Source: an uncultured Arenicella sp.
GTDB taxonomy: Bacteria; Pseudomonadota; Gammaproteobacteria; Arenicellales; Arenicellaceae
Length of the DNA: 64,000 nt
Assembly (NCBI GenBank): GCA_937922925.1
Contig: CALAKU010000002.1
Location: 62,001 to 126,000, forward strand
Direction: 5' to 3'
Shown: one piece after another, positions 17,061 through 28,034 of the stretch
Layout of the letters: every line of letters starts with the position of its first letter
Position numbering within the stretch: the first letter of the stretch is position 1
Notes under the pieces: generated by a model
The model's input: only the letters and a program-made list of their open reading frames with translations
What the model was told of the DNA's origin: nothing
The model's database searches: none
Program-made: the position numbers and the translations under genes

Positions 17061-17360
17061 CTAAGCGTATTCGGTGAGCAAGGCTTGTACCTGTTCTAGG
17101 CTTCGCGCTAGATTTGTATCGTTGCCAGATTCAATAGCCGCCATCGCCTCTCGGCAAACTTGGCTCAAATCACTATAGCCATACATCCCAGACGAGCCCG
17201 CGAGTTTATGAAGGTACTCATTTAGCTCTGATTCTGGGTTTTCGCCGCGCCCTTCTAACAAGGCGCTTTGAAGCGCACCGAGTTCACTCGCTTTGTCGCT
17301 AAAGCTCTGTTGATAACGCGCCCGAATCGCTCGAACTTGTGGTGAGTCTTGCTTTGACAT
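17061..17360 (-). CDS. Stand-alone histidine phosphotransfer (Hpt) protein
   Basis: 99 residues, a typical Hpt four-helix size. The phosphorylatable histidine is H51 in YLHKLAGSSGMYG, the classical HxLxG(S/A)S pattern. It would accept phosphate from the receiver of the hybrid kinase encoded 20 bp upstream and pass it to another receiver, most likely that of the OmpR-type regulator at the start of this locus. This partner choice is inferred from gene order. Confidence 0.92.
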   Translation of the reverse strand: MSKQDSPQVRAIRARYQQSFSDKASELGALQSALLEGRGENPESELNEYLHKLAGSSGMYGYSDLSQVCREAMAAIESGNDTNLARSLEQVQALLTEYA

Positions 17361-17380
17361 AAACGTTTTAAAGTGCCGCC

Positions 17381-18925
17381 TTAGGCTTCGCTGGTGAGTT
17401 GATTTGCCAGCAGTAATATTTCTTCTATTTCTACTGGCTTAGTTAAATAGGCTGCACATCCATACTGCTGCGCTTGCAATCGATCTTCGCTGAGATTTGA
17501 CGCACTCATGACAGCAACCGGTACGGTATTACCGCCTTTTTGCATGGCCTCCATAGCCTGATAACCATCCATTACGGGCATGTGCAAATCCATTAGTATG
17601 AGATCAAACTGTTCGTGTTCTGACGCTTCAAGTGCAAGCGCCCCATTGCTTACGTGTGTGACTTCAATGTTTTGCTCATCTAGCAGCATCACCAGTAAAT
17701 CGGCGATATCGCTATCGTCTTCGGCCAGCAGCACTTTCAATTGATCAATGTCAATCGACGGCTCAGGCATGGCAAGCGCTTCGGCTTCAAGTAATGGCAT
17801 GGGCAGTTCAAATGACACCTGTGTGCCTTGATGCAACTCTGAACGGATCACCAGTTCACCTCCCATGAGCTCAATCAGACCTTCGGTGATTGTTAAGCCC
17901 AAACCGGTGCCCGCTTTACCTGTATCCGCAACCTGAAAAAACGGGATACGGATTTTGGCGAGATTATCTTTGCTAATGCCTTCGCCGGTATCGATGACTT
18001 CGATGCTTAATAGCTCGCGATTTAGCTCGGCCTTTAAGGTCACCGAGCCTTTGTCGGTAAACTTGACGGCATTCCCGACAATGTTTAACAGACATTGACG
18101 CAATCGACTGTCGTCGGCAATCACCATGCAGCCTGGTTCAAAATTAGTTTGAAGAGTAAACTCAACGTTCTTGGTGCCGGCTAAGGGGCTCAACAATAAG
18201 CGGATATCATCAAACACCTCATGCAGATCGCAAGGCTTAGGCCGAATCACAATTTGATCGGCATCGAGCTTTCCATGATCCAGCAAGTTTTCCACCAGAC
18301 TCAGAATGTGTTTGCTCGATCTTTTCACAGCTCGCAAATAGGATCGGCAATTTGCATAGGCCTCAGGATTTTTATCAGGGTTATGAGTTTCACGCTCTAG
18401 AAGGTTGGTGTAACCAATGATCGAGCTTAAAGGCGTTCTAAACTCATGTGACACGCCAGATAAAAAACTGTTCTGTAGTCGGGCCGCTTCACGCAGCGCC
18501 TCGTTCTTACCTTCCAGTTCTTTGGAGGCTTGCTCAAGTCGATGAGTTAGTATGCGTTGCTGGCGTAAGAGAAGCTCATTTTCATTGGCTTTTTGCTGCA
18601 ACAGCTGACGTTGTTCAGCTAGATGAGATGCGTTTGAGAAAACAATCGCCAAACCTCTTTTAGACGGTATCAAATTTACCGCGACGGTGATGCCTGAGGG
18701 GCTTTCGACGAGTGGCAAATCTACTCGGGTTGATGCATCAAACCCCACCATAAAATCGACATAATCTTCGACTTCGCAACCTAAAGGAATCTCTGGGTAG
18801 CCATAAAGGGTAAGGCCGTCTGATACTTCGACAACCTTTAAGTTTTTATCGGTGTACAAATAAGCCAAATCCCACTTATCGTAGAGTTGCTTATTTATGT
18901 GTTTTTGCAGAGAAAGGGCCGCCAT
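17381..18925 (-). CDS. Hybrid sensor histidine kinase with C-terminal receiver
   Basis: 514 residues, no membrane segment, so cytoplasmic. A PAS-like N-terminus (about 15-100, with YTDKNLKVVEVSDGLTLYGY) leads into a coiled coil (102-150), a DHp domain with H160 in VSHEFRTPLSSIIGYT, an ATPase domain (N box N285 in NIVGNAVKFT, DTGEGI at 312-317, GTGLGLTI at 339-346) and a receiver with D446 in LILMDLHMP and K496. The signal is unknown. Downstream Hpt and upstream GTPase, membrane and coiled-coil genes suggest a four-step phosphorelay coupled to the GTPase module. Confidence 0.93.
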   Translation of the reverse strand: MAALSLQKHINKQLYDKWDLAYLYTDKNLKVVEVSDGLTLYGYPEIPLGCEVEDYVDFMVGFDASTRVDLPLVESPSGITVAVNLIPSKRGLAIVFSNASHLAEQRQLLQQKANENELLLRQQRILTHRLEQASKELEGKNEALREAARLQNSFLSGVSHEFRTPLSSIIGYTNLLERETHNPDKNPEAYANCRSYLRAVKRSSKHILSLVENLLDHGKLDADQIVIRPKPCDLHEVFDDIRLLLSPLAGTKNVEFTLQTNFEPGCMVIADDSRLRQCLLNIVGNAVKFTDKGSVTLKAELNRELLSIEVIDTGEGISKDNLAKIRIPFFQVADTGKAGTGLGLTITEGLIELMGGELVIRSELHQGTQVSFELPMPLLEAEALAMPEPSIDIDQLKVLLAEDDSDIADLLVMLLDEQNIEVTHVSNGALALEASEHEQFDLILMDLHMPVMDGYQAMEAMQKGGNTVPVAVMSASNLSEDRLQAQQYGCAAYLTKPVEIEEILLLANQLTSEA

Positions 18926-18986
18926 CGTTGATTACCTAATCTTGTTTTTTAAAACACACTCAAGGGATGCTGTGGTCAAACCGAAC

Positions 18987-19463
18987 TCACTGTATAAGCC
19001 GACAAAGTTGAGTAAACAACCCTTCGACCTCGACCCCCTCTTTTGCACTGGTTTCAAAAACAATCCAACCTCTTTCTTTTAGTGACTGGATTTGCTCAGG
19101 GGTCACTGACCACTCTGGCAAATCTCGCTTATTTAAGGCAACGACCGTCGGCACTTTACCTATTCTTTTTTCAACGGTGTCCCATATGCTGTGTAAATCA
19201 TCAACGGTTTCAGGGCGCGTTCCGTCAGCAACTAAAGCGATGCCTGACGCGCCAACCAAGTAACTTAGGTTGATTGGGGAGAGAGAATCACGCCCTGCAA
19301 CATCCCAAACTATTAACTTGGTTTCATCAACAATTGCAGTATCGATCTTAACGCCGATCGTCGTCAGATACTGTTCGGAGAAAACATTGTTTACAAATTT
19401 TTGCGTTAGGCTTGTTTTGCCGACTGAAAAATCACCGACCATGCAGACTTTTTTCTTATCCAT
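18987..19463 (-). CDS. Rab/Ras-like small GTPase
   Basis: 158 residues of a compact Ras-superfamily G domain. G1 is GDFSVGKTS (10-18), the switch I threonine lies in YLTTIGVKI (32-40), G3 is WDVAGRDS (53-60), G4 is NKRD (111-114) and G5 is ETSAKEG (137-143). The layout, including WDxAGxD, resembles eukaryotic Rab and bacterial Rab-like proteins much more than Era/EngA GTPases. The residue matching catalytic Gln61 of Ras is R58, suggesting slow intrinsic hydrolysis or an unusual activation mode. There is no C-terminal lipid-anchor cysteine motif. It lies 5 bp after the gene for the 508-residue membrane protein and likely works with it. Confidence 0.92.
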   Translation of the reverse strand: MDKKKVCMVGDFSVGKTSLTQKFVNNVFSEQYLTTIGVKIDTAIVDETKLIVWDVAGRDSLSPINLSYLVGASGIALVADGTRPETVDDLHSIWDTVEKRIGKVPTVVALNKRDLPEWSVTPEQIQSLKERGWIVFETSAKEGVEVEGLFTQLCRLIQ

Positions 19464-19468
19464 AGAGC

Positions 19469-20995
19469 TTAACTTTCTGACTTTAGAGGACGGGGCTGGA
19501 CATTGAGACGAACCCAGTCACTGTTGGCAAACATCACTTGTAATATGGTCAAGCTCTGAATATCCAATTGGCCGCCTACGACCAACACAGACTGTTCATC
19601 AACGACTAGGCTGCTCATTTTCAATCTGGCCAAATCCTCTTTACTAAAACTTTGCTCAAGTAAGTCTGACACCGACTCATAAGAAGGGCTTAACTGAGAG
19701 ATATTAAGGCGTCGATCAGCGGCGAGCTGTCGAATTCGATTGTTATTGTGTTGTAGCCAAAGAAATGGGGCCTCTCCATATAAATAAATGGAACCTTCTC
19801 GCTCCGATAAGTACACGCCCGAAGGAAGCTCTAGTTCTTCGGTAAAACGCTGCAATTCCATGCCGACTTCTAATGAACGAAAAGGAATGGTGCGAAGGTC
19901 AATTTGAGACTCCGAGATACCGTAGCTTTCAAGCGTTGCAAATGGGATTTTGGCATCGGGGTCACGCAAACCCTGAACGACAATTTTGTCATCCTCCCAA
20001 AACAAGTGGGTAGTGGCTATGCCAGGCTGGTTATCGAGCAAATGATTAGCGGTGTCTAGTAAGGTTTTTCGCTCAAACCAATGGTAGCCGACGAATAATA
20101 AGACGGCAGCGAGTATCAAGAACGGCCATAAGGGAACCTTACTTTTACGCGCGGCTTGCTTCTCATCAATGTCTTTTAATCGCACTTGCAGGAGATTACT
20201 CATGGCAAGATCGGCGCCATCAAACGAACTTGAATCGCCTTGGAAACGGGCGATTTCTATCGAATAGTCCGTTCGTATTTGATCTAAGGTGTCGTATAAA
20301 TCTTGTTTCAATGCCTCAGGCGCATCCCCAGTGATAACGCAAGCGAGCATAGTTTGAGCGCCATGAGCAACCCAAACATTGTATTCACCTACTTTTAAGT
20401 CGGTTAAGCGCGAATCGTTGCCTGCGGTAAATGAATCCTGCACGAAGGATTGAATGGCACTAAACATCGCGCCAATGGCATCGGAATCGAGTGTTTGCGT
20501 GTCGCTGGAGCTGATCTCTTTAATTAACAGCCCAGTGTCTCGATGGATAAGGTAAACGTGCTCTACTCGGTAAACCAACGATTGGCGCAGAGCCAGCTCA
20601 GCGTAGGGCACTCCAGTTCGCCAAGACTGCATGCGTAGCTTCCAAGCACTGACGGAGGTCGCCGAGTCGATCGACCGATTAATCGTTAATAACAACGAAG
20701 AAATAGCTTGCGAGATGGCGCGCCGAATAGAAGGCGCCATAACCGGATATAGAATCTCTGCGTATTCTGCTGGCTCAGTGCGAATGGCTTGCTTTAACGA
20801 ACGAGATACGGGCTCTTTGAACGACTCTACTAAACGATCGCCACCACTGGCTAATTCTTTATCAATCGCAGGCGACAGAACCTCAGCCACATCATTGGTT
20901 CGATGTTCAAGGCTCTCAATACGATTTTTAAGATCGGCCAGTTGATCGGCGTTACCACCAACAATAATGCGCCGCAATTCATCTAGTTGACTCAT
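19469..20995 (-). CDS. Membrane-anchored 508-residue protein of the GTPase locus
   Basis: One central membrane helix (about 288-305, PLWPFLILAAVLLFVGYHWF) divides the protein. The cytoplasm-facing part (1-285) has a charged helical N-terminus and a domain at about 140-235 (VEHVYLIHRDTGLLIKEISS, AIQSFVQDSF, GEYNVWVAHGAQTMLACVI) that recalls the roadblock/longin folds used by bacterial and eukaryotic proteins to bind small GTPases. The other side (306-508) may hold small BON- or OmpA-like alpha/beta repeats. I recognise the pattern only loosely; no firm family name can be given. Tight spacing with the GTPase gene (5 bp) suggests it is the GTPase partner or membrane platform. Confidence 0.85.
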   Translation of the reverse strand: MSQLDELRRIIVGGNADQLADLKNRIESLEHRTNDVAEVLSPAIDKELASGGDRLVESFKEPVSRSLKQAIRTEPAEYAEILYPVMAPSIRRAISQAISSLLLTINRSIDSATSVSAWKLRMQSWRTGVPYAELALRQSLVYRVEHVYLIHRDTGLLIKEISSSDTQTLDSDAIGAMFSAIQSFVQDSFTAGNDSRLTDLKVGEYNVWVAHGAQTMLACVITGDAPEALKQDLYDTLDQIRTDYSIEIARFQGDSSSFDGADLAMSNLLQVRLKDIDEKQAARKSKVPLWPFLILAAVLLFVGYHWFERKTLLDTANHLLDNQPGIATTHLFWEDDKIVVQGLRDPDAKIPFATLESYGISESQIDLRTIPFRSLEVGMELQRFTEELELPSGVYLSEREGSIYLYGEAPFLWLQHNNNRIRQLAADRRLNISQLSPSYESVSDLLEQSFSKEDLARLKMSSLVVDEQSVLVVGGQLDIQSLTILQVMFANSDWVRLNVQPRPLKSES

Positions 20996-21039
20996 GACTG
21001 CTTAGTACGCCATTCAATCGTGCCTAAAAAAATCTACAA

Positions 21040-21579
21040 TTAACTGCTACGTAACTTTACCGCGACTTCATCCAGCATCAGCGCCAAGGTTTGGCGGCTA
21101 ACTTTGTCGGATTGTAATTCTTCGCGTTGCAGATTTAATTGCTTATTAAGTTCATCTTGCGCGACTTTAGATTGCCCGAGCAGTTCTTCATGACTCTCTT
21201 GCAGCGCCGCTTTCACCGCAGCCAAATCTTGATTTGCCTGATCTTCCATCAAAGAGATTGAATGCTGTAGCGTAGTGCGCGCATCCTCCAGCGTTTTATG
21301 CAGGGCATTCATCTCGGCGTCGCGCTTCTTTTGTTCTTGGCCAATCATTTTGTCCAAGCGCGATAAGGATTCATTGACGGCGTCGTCCATGCCCGCCATT
21401 TTCTCAGTTAAGCGATCCTTAATTTGCTCAACGTCTTGCTCTAAACGCGCTTCGAGTTGAGCAAAACGGTGCTCAAAGTCGCTTACGTATTTGCCGAATA
21501 AAATATCTCGGACTTTGTCTATTTCACCTAAGCCCGGGTTAATCACTTCGGCTTTACTTCGTTTTGTCGAGTCGTTCAT
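21040..21579 (-). CDS. Coiled-coil protein of the GTPase locus
   Basis: 179 residues, highly charged, no signal peptide or membrane segment. After a short head (VRDILFGKYVSDFEHRFAQLE at about 23-43) the rest is a continuous heptad-rich helix to about residue 170, so it probably forms a rod or oligomer. The head motif, a hydrophobic LFG followed by a charged helix, looks conserved. It lies between the OmpR-type regulator and the membrane protein gene and may link GTPase and membrane protein or act as a scaffold. Function unknown. Confidence 0.82.
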   Translation of the reverse strand: MNDSTKRSKAEVINPGLGEIDKVRDILFGKYVSDFEHRFAQLEARLEQDVEQIKDRLTEKMAGMDDAVNESLSRLDKMIGQEQKKRDAEMNALHKTLEDARTTLQHSISLMEDQANQDLAAVKAALQESHEELLGQSKVAQDELNKQLNLQREELQSDKVSRQTLALMLDEVAVKLRSS

Positions 21580-21592
21580 ACTGCACCTCTGC

Positions 21593-22282
21593 CTAGTTGA
21601 TTTGTTCTAAACGATAACCGTGTCTGTACACTGATATTAGTTGCCAATTTTCTTGTTTGTCTAACTCAAGCTTGGTACGCAAGCGGCTGATATGTGTATC
21701 AACCGTTCGCGTATTCAATTTAGCACTAGTGCCCCACACCATTTCAAGCAAATGGCCTCGGGAAATCACCCTACCTAAATTTTTAAACAAAAACAAAGCC
21801 AACTCATATTCTTTTTGAGTCATTTCGACATGCTCATCGTTATAGAACATGCGCCGTAACTTTGTATCGATTTTGTACGGAGGAAAGTCGTAGGCGTCCG
21901 ACGTATTTTCATCGCCGAAACCCATGCGTCGAGCAATAGCATTTACCCGCGCCATCGTCTCTGCTTCACGTACAGGTTTGGTCATGTAGTCGTCGGCCCC
22001 GGCTTCCAAGGCCGCAACAATGTCTTGTTCTGCGTCGCGTTGAGTAATAAACACCACCGGCACCACCGCATCAAGATGAGCTCTGAGATGGGCTAACACT
22101 TCTATCCCAGAAACTTTTGGTACATTCCAGTCGAGTAAGACGAGGTCAAAACTGTCTTGCTTGTACGCTCTTATAAAACTATTGCCGTCTTTGTAGACAG
22201 CGCATTGGTGACCGGCCTCTTCTAACCAGGCAACTAGCAGGTCTGCCTGATCTTGATCGTCCTCTAAGATTACAATTCTCAT
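21593..22282 (-). CDS. OmpR/PhoB-family response regulator
   Basis: 229 residues: receiver domain 1-120 with D51 in LLDWNVP, acidic pocket EDD at 7-9, K102 in MTKPV; and a winged-helix DNA-binding domain at about 130-228 (EMTQKEYELALFLFKN, VDTHISRLRTKLE, YRHGYRLE). First gene of the six-gene minus-strand locus, 13 bp before the coiled-coil gene. It is the likely output of the kinase-Hpt relay encoded downstream. No recognition site could be identified in its own upstream region. Confidence 0.94.
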   Translation of the reverse strand: MRIVILEDDQDQADLLVAWLEEAGHQCAVYKDGNSFIRAYKQDSFDLVLLDWNVPKVSGIEVLAHLRAHLDAVVPVVFITQRDAEQDIVAALEAGADDYMTKPVREAETMARVNAIARRMGFGDENTSDAYDFPPYKIDTKLRRMFYNDEHVEMTQKEYELALFLFKNLGRVISRGHLLEMVWGTSAKLNTRTVDTHISRLRTKLELDKQENWQLISVYRHGYRLEQIN

Positions 22283-26360: not shown

Positions 26361-28034
26361 TTGACGGGTATGGCAAATTCTAATTTTAGTACGTTGATAT
26401 ATCGCATCATTGGCAAACCTGAGGTTTGGCATGAAGATTATATCGACATGATGCACCAGGTTTTGGATGAAACCGACTCTTTTGACGACCCTCAAAATTT
26501 TTCCGAACTTGCGATCGGAGACCAAATCCTAAGTCGCATATCCAACACGAATGAAGCCTTAACCGCGTTCGGCTCTTTACTTGATCGCAGCCGCTTCAAA
26601 ATGATTATCTTGGACGATGGCTTCGCCCCCATCTATCACAACGCGAACGCCAAAGAGCTGCTTGCGCATGTGATAGACAAAGAGGCACAAACGGCCTTAG
26701 ACACGAAGATATTAGCGAAGGTTCGATGCGCAACAGATCAAAGAGATCAAAAAAAGAGCCTTGGTGACCACTCCAACCTCTGCGCTTTGGACTACTTTGA
26801 CAATCACGGCGACCAAGTTTATCTGCGAACCATTGAAAATCAAAATAAGACCGACGATTTGATCTCGCGGTTTTATCTGCTGTTGGTGCTAGATCAAAGC
26901 CGTGATAGCAATCAATTAAACCAAGAATTAATCGAGCGCTATGACATCACTGAAAAAGAACACAAGGTACTAGTAAACCTAGTCCATGGCAAAACCATCA
27001 AGGAAATTGCCGACTTGTGTTTTGTGTCCGACAACACCGTTAAGTCGCATCTAAAAGCCCTTTTTCGTAAGACGCAGACCAAGGGTCAAGCCGACATTAT
27101 TCGCTTGGTTTTGACGCATGAATCGCAAGTATTGGATTCGTATTTTGGCACCTCTCTCGCAAGTGGGCCAGAAGCCTTAGACACTAGCACAGAACGCAGC
27201 GTAGTCTTATCGGACGGTTTAGAAATAGCGTATCGAGAATACGGCCCCGAAGACGGCGACCCCATTATAGTTTGCCACAATGGCTATGGTTGCCGCTTGT
27301 CGATCCCGAACAATTACGAAACAGCGTGTTTAGCGTCCAATAAACGTGTGATCATTCCAGATCGACCGGGCTACGGTAAAACGCCATTTCTAAATCAAAA
27401 ACCGGATACGTGGATCGAATCTCTCAACGAGTTTGTCGAAAAACTTGAACTAGACTCCTACGAAATTTTAGGCAGCGTCTTAGGCAGTTGCATTGCTTTG
27501 GTGTTTGCCGAGCAGGCCGATCGGCGCTTAAAAGCAGTTCGGCTTGCAAGCCCTGTTTTCGTTAACACACGTAAAGATGGTGAATATTTAACCGGTATTT
27601 TTGCGCCCAGCGTGCGCTTGGTTCGCGCGTCAAAACGATTTGCTCGCGAGATTTACGAACTCTGGTTAAAGAGTGTCACGATGAACTTATCAACTCATTA
27701 CCGCAGCATGCTTGAACGCAGCTTAGGTGACGCCGAAGTCGAGCTATTCGAAAAAGACGGCACTATCGATCTGATGATCAAAACGTTTCACGAAGGCAGT
27801 AGTCGGTCGTTACAGGGGATCTCAGGTGAGATGGTGTACTGCATCTCACCGCGTAATATTGATTTAAGCAAAATCAGCGTTCCAGTTGATCTTTGGTGGG
27901 GCACGCAGGACAATCGCGTCTCCAAGCAAGGGGTTGAGAATCTTGCTTCACAACTGCCAAACGCCAAGATCCACATCCGAGAGGGTTACAGCGAACACAT
28001 ATATTATTCCCTATTTAAGGAAATCATCGCCTAA
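26361..28034 (+). CDS. LuxR-type HTH regulator fused to a degenerate alpha/beta hydrolase
   Basis: 557 residues. Residues 1-185 form a poorly recognisable sensor-like region (possibly PAS-like, around 75-180). A LuxR/NarL helix-turn-helix lies at about 193-252 (YDITEKEHKVLVNLVHGKTI, then FVSDNTVKSHLKALFRKT). Residues 280-557 are an alpha/beta hydrolase fold (IIPDRPGYGKT, WWGTQDNRVS, GYSEHIYY). The acid D517 and histidine H546 of the triad seem present, but the nucleophile elbow reads G371-S-V-L-G, placing valine (V373) where serine is expected. The domain may therefore bind, not cleave, a ligand. It is convergent with relA, with overlapping stop codons. Confidence 0.85.
   Translation: MTGMANSNFSTLIYRIIGKPEVWHEDYIDMMHQVLDETDSFDDPQNFSELAIGDQILSRISNTNEALTAFGSLLDRSRFKMIILDDGFAPIYHNANAKELLAHVIDKEAQTALDTKILAKVRCATDQRDQKKSLGDHSNLCALDYFDNHGDQVYLRTIENQNKTDDLISRFYLLLVLDQSRDSNQLNQELIERYDITEKEHKVLVNLVHGKTIKEIADLCFVSDNTVKSHLKALFRKTQTKGQADIIRLVLTHESQVLDSYFGTSLASGPEALDTSTERSVVLSDGLEIAYREYGPEDGDPIIVCHNGYGCRLSIPNNYETACLASNKRVIIPDRPGYGKTPFLNQKPDTWIESLNEFVEKLELDSYEILGSVLGSCIALVFAEQADRRLKAVRLASPVFVNTRKDGEYLTGIFAPSVRLVRASKRFAREIYELWLKSVTMNLSTHYRSMLERSLGDAEVELFEKDGTIDLMIKTFHEGSSRSLQGISGEMVYCISPRNIDLSKISVPVDLWWGTQDNRVSKQGVENLASQLPNAKIHIREGYSEHIYYSLFKEIIA

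Follow-up and report, generated by a model that had tools for sequence, protein, structure and literature searches.

What does a Rab-like small GTPase do in the midst of genes for a His-Asp phosphorelay? The question is raised by six adjacent genes in an uncultured Arenicella sp., a marine bacterium, which lie within a 64,000-nt stretch of contig CALAKU010000002.1 (the whole of the DNA analysed, here called the window; coordinates are positions within it unless another locus is named). We think it probable, on balance, that the locus encodes a group 1 Rup signalling system in which a complete His-Asp phosphorelay is the output and the GTPase acts upstream of the kinase. Group 1 Rup was described in 2014 by Wuichet and Søgaard-Andersen as a GTPase lacking the G3 Gln together with a neighbouring coiled-coil protein, a protein with a conserved domain of unknown nature, often with a transmembrane (TM) helix and OmpA, and an output enzyme with an invariant N-terminal Gln, cyclic di-GMP (c-di-GMP) enzymes and kinases being the only typical outputs named (PMC4316618). 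No member had been characterised as of 2014 (PMC4316618), and our limited literature search, which reached few subscription journals, found no later experimental study under the name Rup. We propose that the components work as one complex because the GTPase, coiled-coil and membrane-protein genes co-occur, the N-terminal domain of the output is kept, the membrane protein has a predicted longin fold, regulator and Hpt genes accompany kinases only, the phosphorelay residues are kept, and the genes appear to have been lost as a block. A joint complex of the group 1 Rup components was also proposed in 2014, giving independent support (PMC4316618).

The six open reading frames (ORFs) all lie on the minus strand and run from 22282 to 17061, encoding in order an OmpR-type response regulator, a coiled-coil protein, a membrane protein, the GTPase, a hybrid histidine kinase and an Hpt protein, with intergenic gaps of 13, 44, 5, 61 and 20 bp. 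A preliminary description of this DNA had listed the same six closely spaced genes; each ORF was recovered at its position and Pfam supports the protein types assigned to the regulator, GTPase, kinase and Hpt genes. A promoter/terminator scan returned fewer promoter-like sites at the locus than in shuffled sequences and about as many terminator-like sites, so it is uninformative on transcript structure.

The GTPase (158 residues, 18987-19463; Pfam Ras, 6.4e-25) outscores by a wide margin the three other Ras-profile matches in the genome. Among solved chains it is nearest to Rab35 and Sec4 (E about 1e-20 to 1e-18, best 1.6e-20), and group 1 Rup proteins were themselves judged very similar to Rab, Ras, Ran and Rho proteins (PMC4316618). 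Its G-motifs are kept. The G3 motif, WDVAGR, has the Asp and lacks the catalytic Gln; this Asp (D54) is invariant in 14 aligned sequences, and a G3 Gln was found in none of 70 parsed homologues. The Thr that MglA carries in place of the G3 Asp is likewise absent, the Asp being invariant, so the GTPase is not an MglA. It has no C-terminal Cys anchor.

Downstream of the GTPase lies the gene for the soluble hybrid kinase (514 residues, 17381-18925; Pfam HisKA, HATPase_c and Response_reg). Residues 1-140 are modelled at a mean predicted local distance difference test score (pLDDT) of 90 as a PAS-like domain that leads into a long helix, and a fold search matched PAS domains to this region at Z 8-9.8. 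Within the exit helix Q111 is invariant in 38 sequences, and would correspond to the invariant Gln of PMC4316618. In Variovorax the same Q111 domain is joined to the N-terminal side of SpoIIE phosphatases, in Mesorhizobium and others to that of class III cyclases, and in cyanobacteria and Thiotrichales it also stands alone, adjoining the GTPase gene. Since one N-terminal domain is common to kinase, SpoIIE phosphatase and class III cyclase outputs, the predicted PAS-like domain is likely to be the GTPase-responsive part of the output. A simple hydropathy scan found no TM segment in the kinase homologues, suggesting that the kinase input is probably cytoplasmic.

Other output N-termini occur as well. 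An HD-domain output has a different one (L112), and at seven loci (L101, L104, L069, L073, L082, L088 and L113) the gene after the GTPase encodes a second type, with its own invariant Gln in LQKAR-like motifs, that replaces or accompanies the PAS-like domain. The seven proteins of this type align only weakly with the Q111 domain (probability 29%).

The same complex may be read with the flow reversed, the PAS-like domain of the kinase acting on the GTPase, and the GTPase rather than the regulator being the main output. For example, Q111 could complete the GTPase active site in trans, in the manner of a GTPase-activating protein, and in this form the idea is the main rival to our proposal. It would make sense of an invariant Q111 beside GTPases that in 0/70 cases carry the G3 Gln, and the 2014 authors both raised a Gln supplied in trans and, for conservons, viewed the GTPase as the output (PMC4316618). 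However, phosphatases and cyclases with outputs of their own carry this N-terminal domain too, and the kinase variants have an OmpR-type regulator encoded alongside, so we regard the reversed flow as unlikely, while taking it more seriously than the other alternatives.

A signal leaving the GTPase for the kinase would find a full set of phosphoacceptors. The stand-alone Hpt protein (99 residues, 17061-17360; Pfam Hpt, 1.2e-8) and the regulator (229 residues, 21593-22282; REC plus winged helix of the OmpR/PhoB type; Pfam Response_reg, 8.5e-26, and Trans_reg_C, 7.2e-21) supply the third and fourth of the His, Asp, His and Asp residues of a multistep phosphorelay, all of which lie in the expected motifs. 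H160 (HisKA) and D446 (REC) are invariant in 12 kinases, Hpt H51 is present in 25/25 sequences and regulator D51 in 25/25. These are the residues picked out in the preliminary description, correctly, and they are conserved. The regulator is 60-83% identical within the genus.

Across Arenicella the six genes keep the order regulator, coiled coil, membrane protein, GTPase, kinase, Hpt, and sit between a HerA-like gene and a zinc-peptidase gene. Synteny within a genus could by itself reflect simple inheritance. A genome of another family (G031) has all six genes in the same order between different flanks. Family f21 contributes three further genomes with this six-gene order and family f143 one more, with another f143 contig breaking off short of the regulator. 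The Hpt gene instead precedes the regulator gene at L108 (Woeseiaceae), L081 and L156. We then looked at the wider family as the best 80 loci from a scan of species genomes with a GTPase alignment, a sample biased to close relatives. The membrane-protein gene lies upstream on the same strand in 67/80 loci and both coiled-coil and membrane-protein genes lie upstream of the GTPase in 61/80, while 66/80 have downstream of it an output gene with the kinase-type N-terminal domain; several loci without the full set are cut by contig ends. GTPase loci were found in Variovorax, Mesorhizobium, Cyanobacteria, Acidobacteria, Verrucomicrobia, Bacteroidetes and a Desulfobacterales bin, and the coiled coil, membrane protein and GTPase co-occur from Gammaproteobacteria through Cyanobacteria, Acidobacteria and Verrucomicrobia. 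In a draw of 369 genomes from the class, 30 have a match to the N-terminal part of the membrane protein, three of them Arenicella; a class-wide tally of 137/369 was inflated by OmpA-only matches and was rejected.

The OmpR-type regulator and free Hpt are found again in several gammaproteobacterial families, and in both locus sets only with kinase or unclassifiable outputs; both genes are absent from all 31 loci whose output is a phosphatase, cyclase or HD-domain protein. The loci share ancestry, so these counts are not independent events. The preliminary description had staked its case on the GTPase, membrane and coiled-coil genes keeping company in other genomes, as they do in those 61 loci, and on the phosphorelay genes not being there by chance. 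The latter is borne out by the genus-wide order, by the different flanks in G031 and by the restriction of regulator and Hpt to kinase outputs.

Some loci depart from the simple arrangement. At L117:3183-9694 a pair of Rup modules is arranged back to back on opposite strands, and one of the two has a class III cyclase as its output. Beggiatoa-type loci (L083:1292-7042 and L093:896-7892) have two large membrane-protein homologues in tandem ahead of the GTPase.

A natural deletion in Arenicella bears on the unity of the locus. The coiled-coil protein (179 residues, 21040-21579; sub-threshold coiled-coil-type Pfam matches only) carries, by alignment, an N-terminal KVRDILFG motif and a conserved C-terminal segment, DKxxRQxLAxMLDEVAxxLR. 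Two Arenicella genomes, G015 (99% complete) and G006, gave no matches to the GTPase, the membrane protein or the orthologous regulator, and between their HerA-like and zinc-peptidase genes, at the syntenic position, the coiled-coil gene alone is left (L185:7116-7643 and L186:7283-7810). Trees of HerA, and of HerA with the zinc peptidase, place G015 and G006 beside G005, nested inside module-bearing genomes, so that the simplest reading is a single loss of five genes together in one Arenicella lineage. The coiled-coil protein of these genomes has lost the KVRDILFG segment that module-bearing genomes have in common, and has retained the coiled coil and C-terminal segment, the family profile aligning to it only from position 41-42. 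That the motif is gone where the rest of the module is gone suggests that the motif is the protein's link to the module, and that the protein does something else as well. Similar (L/V)RxIL/V-G motifs in the N-terminus of the membrane protein raised the question of homology between the two proteins, for which hhalign gave no support.

One could also suppose that phosphorelay and GTPase module are two separate systems sharing an operon and co-regulated only. Indeed the GTPase core occurs elsewhere without regulator and Hpt, implying that the core does not need them. But the kinase itself bears the domain whose association with the GTPase extends to other outputs. The regulator and Hpt both track kinase outputs and were lost along with the GTPase and membrane protein. 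We therefore hold two independent systems to be improbable, more so than a reversed flow.

The membrane protein (508 residues, 19469-20995) is without a Pfam match. An AlphaFold model gives it N-terminal helices (1-139), a longin-like domain (141-274), a long helix (290-321) that we take as its one TM segment, and a confidently predicted C-terminal region (326-501) of repeated small alpha/beta subdomains, presumed to be periplasmic. From 140 to 243 the elements are strand-strand-helix-strand-strand-strand-helix, with further helices to 274, which is the longin order of two strands, a helix, three strands and C-terminal helices. Foldseek ranks AP sigma subunits, TRAPP subunits and Mon1-Ccz1 highest among its matches, and Ragulator and MglB further down. 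In structural alignments residues 141-274 match the longins of Fuzzy, VAMP7, TRAPP and Sec22b at Z 12.8-13.3 (117-126 residues aligned, rmsd (root-mean-square deviation) 2.6-2.8) and the roadblock protein MglB at Z 10.7. The formerly 'unknown' domain is thus predicted to be a longin fold, and the earlier guess of a roadblock/longin-like domain in this protein finds support in structure prediction and in fold matches to solved structures. In other systems longin and roadblock domains bind small GTPases (PMC3521125), which makes the longin domain a natural candidate, by analogy, for the platform of the GTPase.

Homologues in Variovorax, Mesorhizobium, cyanobacteria and some gammaproteobacteria have an OmpA domain; Pfam found none in the Arenicella protein. 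The homologues of G084 and G090, at about 285 residues, are short and stop ahead of the TM segment. At L035:6011-7270 (G004) the gene is interrupted by a stop codon, being either a decayed copy or an assembly error.

A small GTPase beside a roadblock/longin-fold partner with MglB among its structural matches might recall a polarity switch of the MglA/MglB type to which a phosphorelay has been added, as the polarity idea of the preliminary description would imply, but with Asp rather than the MglA Thr at G3, a GTPase closest to Rab among solved chains, a partner that is a TM protein best matched by longins, and no Rup gene coupled to MglB in the 2014 survey (PMC4316618), this is very improbable. 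The roles in polarity, surface sensing or stress offered there were speculation for which we find no support.

In the phosphorelay-output system that we favour, the TM protein would sense an envelope signal, and its cytoplasmic longin domain would keep the Rab-like GTPase at the membrane and set its nucleotide state. The coiled-coil protein would be a scaffold that enters the complex via its KVRDILFG motif. The GTPase would then act on the PAS-like domain and the exit helix around Q111, shifting the kinase/phosphatase balance of the TM-less kinase. Phosphate would pass from H160 to D446, on to Hpt H51 and then to D51 of the OmpR-type regulator, which in its phosphorylated form would alter transcription. 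It is the physical contacts, the direction of signalling, the transfer from Hpt to regulator and the nature of the signal that we infer here.

Several points weigh against this proposal. The papers found demonstrate no contact or activity for group 1 Rup components, and that the six genes form a single transcript is a presumption. The kinase could come before the GTPase in the pathway, an order suggested for actinobacterial conservons. Model confidence is moderate in parts of the longin region (pLDDT, as means per ten residues, about 68-94 over most of 141-270 and below 60 at the end), and a profile of the membrane-protein N-terminus gave no sequence-level longin match against the sequences of solved structures in the PDB. 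Moreover, the absence of regulator and Hpt beside other outputs may partly reflect lineage rather than function.

As far as the literature searched shows, several elements are new: the longin prediction, the PAS-like prediction with the fusion of that domain to SpoIIE phosphatases and class III cyclases, the recurrence of regulator and Hpt with kinase outputs alone, and the loss of the block and of the KVRDILFG motif in one Arenicella lineage. A broader suggestion, which we put forward tentatively and at somewhat less than even confidence, is that group 1 Rup is a widespread bacterial architecture in which a membrane longin protein controls a Rab-like GTPase that drives interchangeable outputs (phosphorelay, phosphatase, cyclase and probably HD-domain enzymes) via a PAS-like effector domain. 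If so, bacteria too would have the Rab and longin partnership of eukaryotic membrane traffic, serving as a signalling switch. Should the membrane partner prove to be a genuine longin, the pairing of Rab-like GTPase and longin regulator would extend beyond eukaryotes and Asgard archaea, which bears on the origin of the eukaryotic Rab machinery. The compact operon, with its classical and assayable phosphorelay output, offers a direct test of group 1 Rup GTPase function.

A reading of the locus as anti-phage defence was rejected, PADLOC giving only weak coiled-coil and receiver-domain matches. Elsewhere in the window a 557-residue ORF (26361-28034, plus strand) joins, by eye, a LuxR-type helix-turn-helix region to an alpha/beta-hydrolase-like region.

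How does the locus compare with known systems? Eukaryotic Rabs and their longin regulators (TRAPP, Mon1-Ccz1, Fuzzy-Inturned) share with it a Rab-like GTPase and a longin-fold partner, whereas the Arenicella set has no prenylation site, has enzyme outputs rather than vesicle traffic, and shows no detected longin relation at the sequence level. MglA/MglB of Myxococcus likewise combines a small GTPase with a roadblock/longin-fold partner and has links to response regulators; its GTPase belongs to another subfamily, with Thr where the present one has Asp at G3. A separate MglB gene was not found here, none of the six proteins having a roadblock Pfam match; the fold sits inside the TM protein. The conservons (cvn; CvnA-CvnD) also unite a small GTPase, a roadblock-fold partner and a histidine kinase in one operon. 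Theirs are an MglA-type GTPase, a free-standing roadblock protein and a membrane kinase with an LPxR motif, without a response regulator; the Arenicella locus has a Rab-like GTPase, a TM longin protein, a soluble hybrid kinase, Hpt and an OmpR regulator, and its kinase lacks the C-terminal LPxR motif, LP occurring only in LPLV and LPMP.

The closest likeness is to group 1 Rup. The locus has, in one neighbourhood, a Rab-like GTPase with the G3 Asp and without the Gln, a coiled-coil neighbour, a TM neighbour with the conserved domain and an output with an invariant Gln. The preliminary description took such GTPases as not normally paired with this set, overlooking group 1 Rup, in which the GTPase accompanies a coiled-coil protein, a membrane protein and a kinase or c-di-GMP enzyme (PMC4316618). 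The Arenicella locus differs in that regulator and Hpt complete the relay, a longin-like character is recognised in the conserved domain and a PAS-like one in the output N-terminus, and the membrane protein has no OmpA match; OmpA is described as 'often' present (PMC4316618) and so is not defining. By gene set and motifs we assign the locus as a variant of group 1 Rup with a phosphorelay output.

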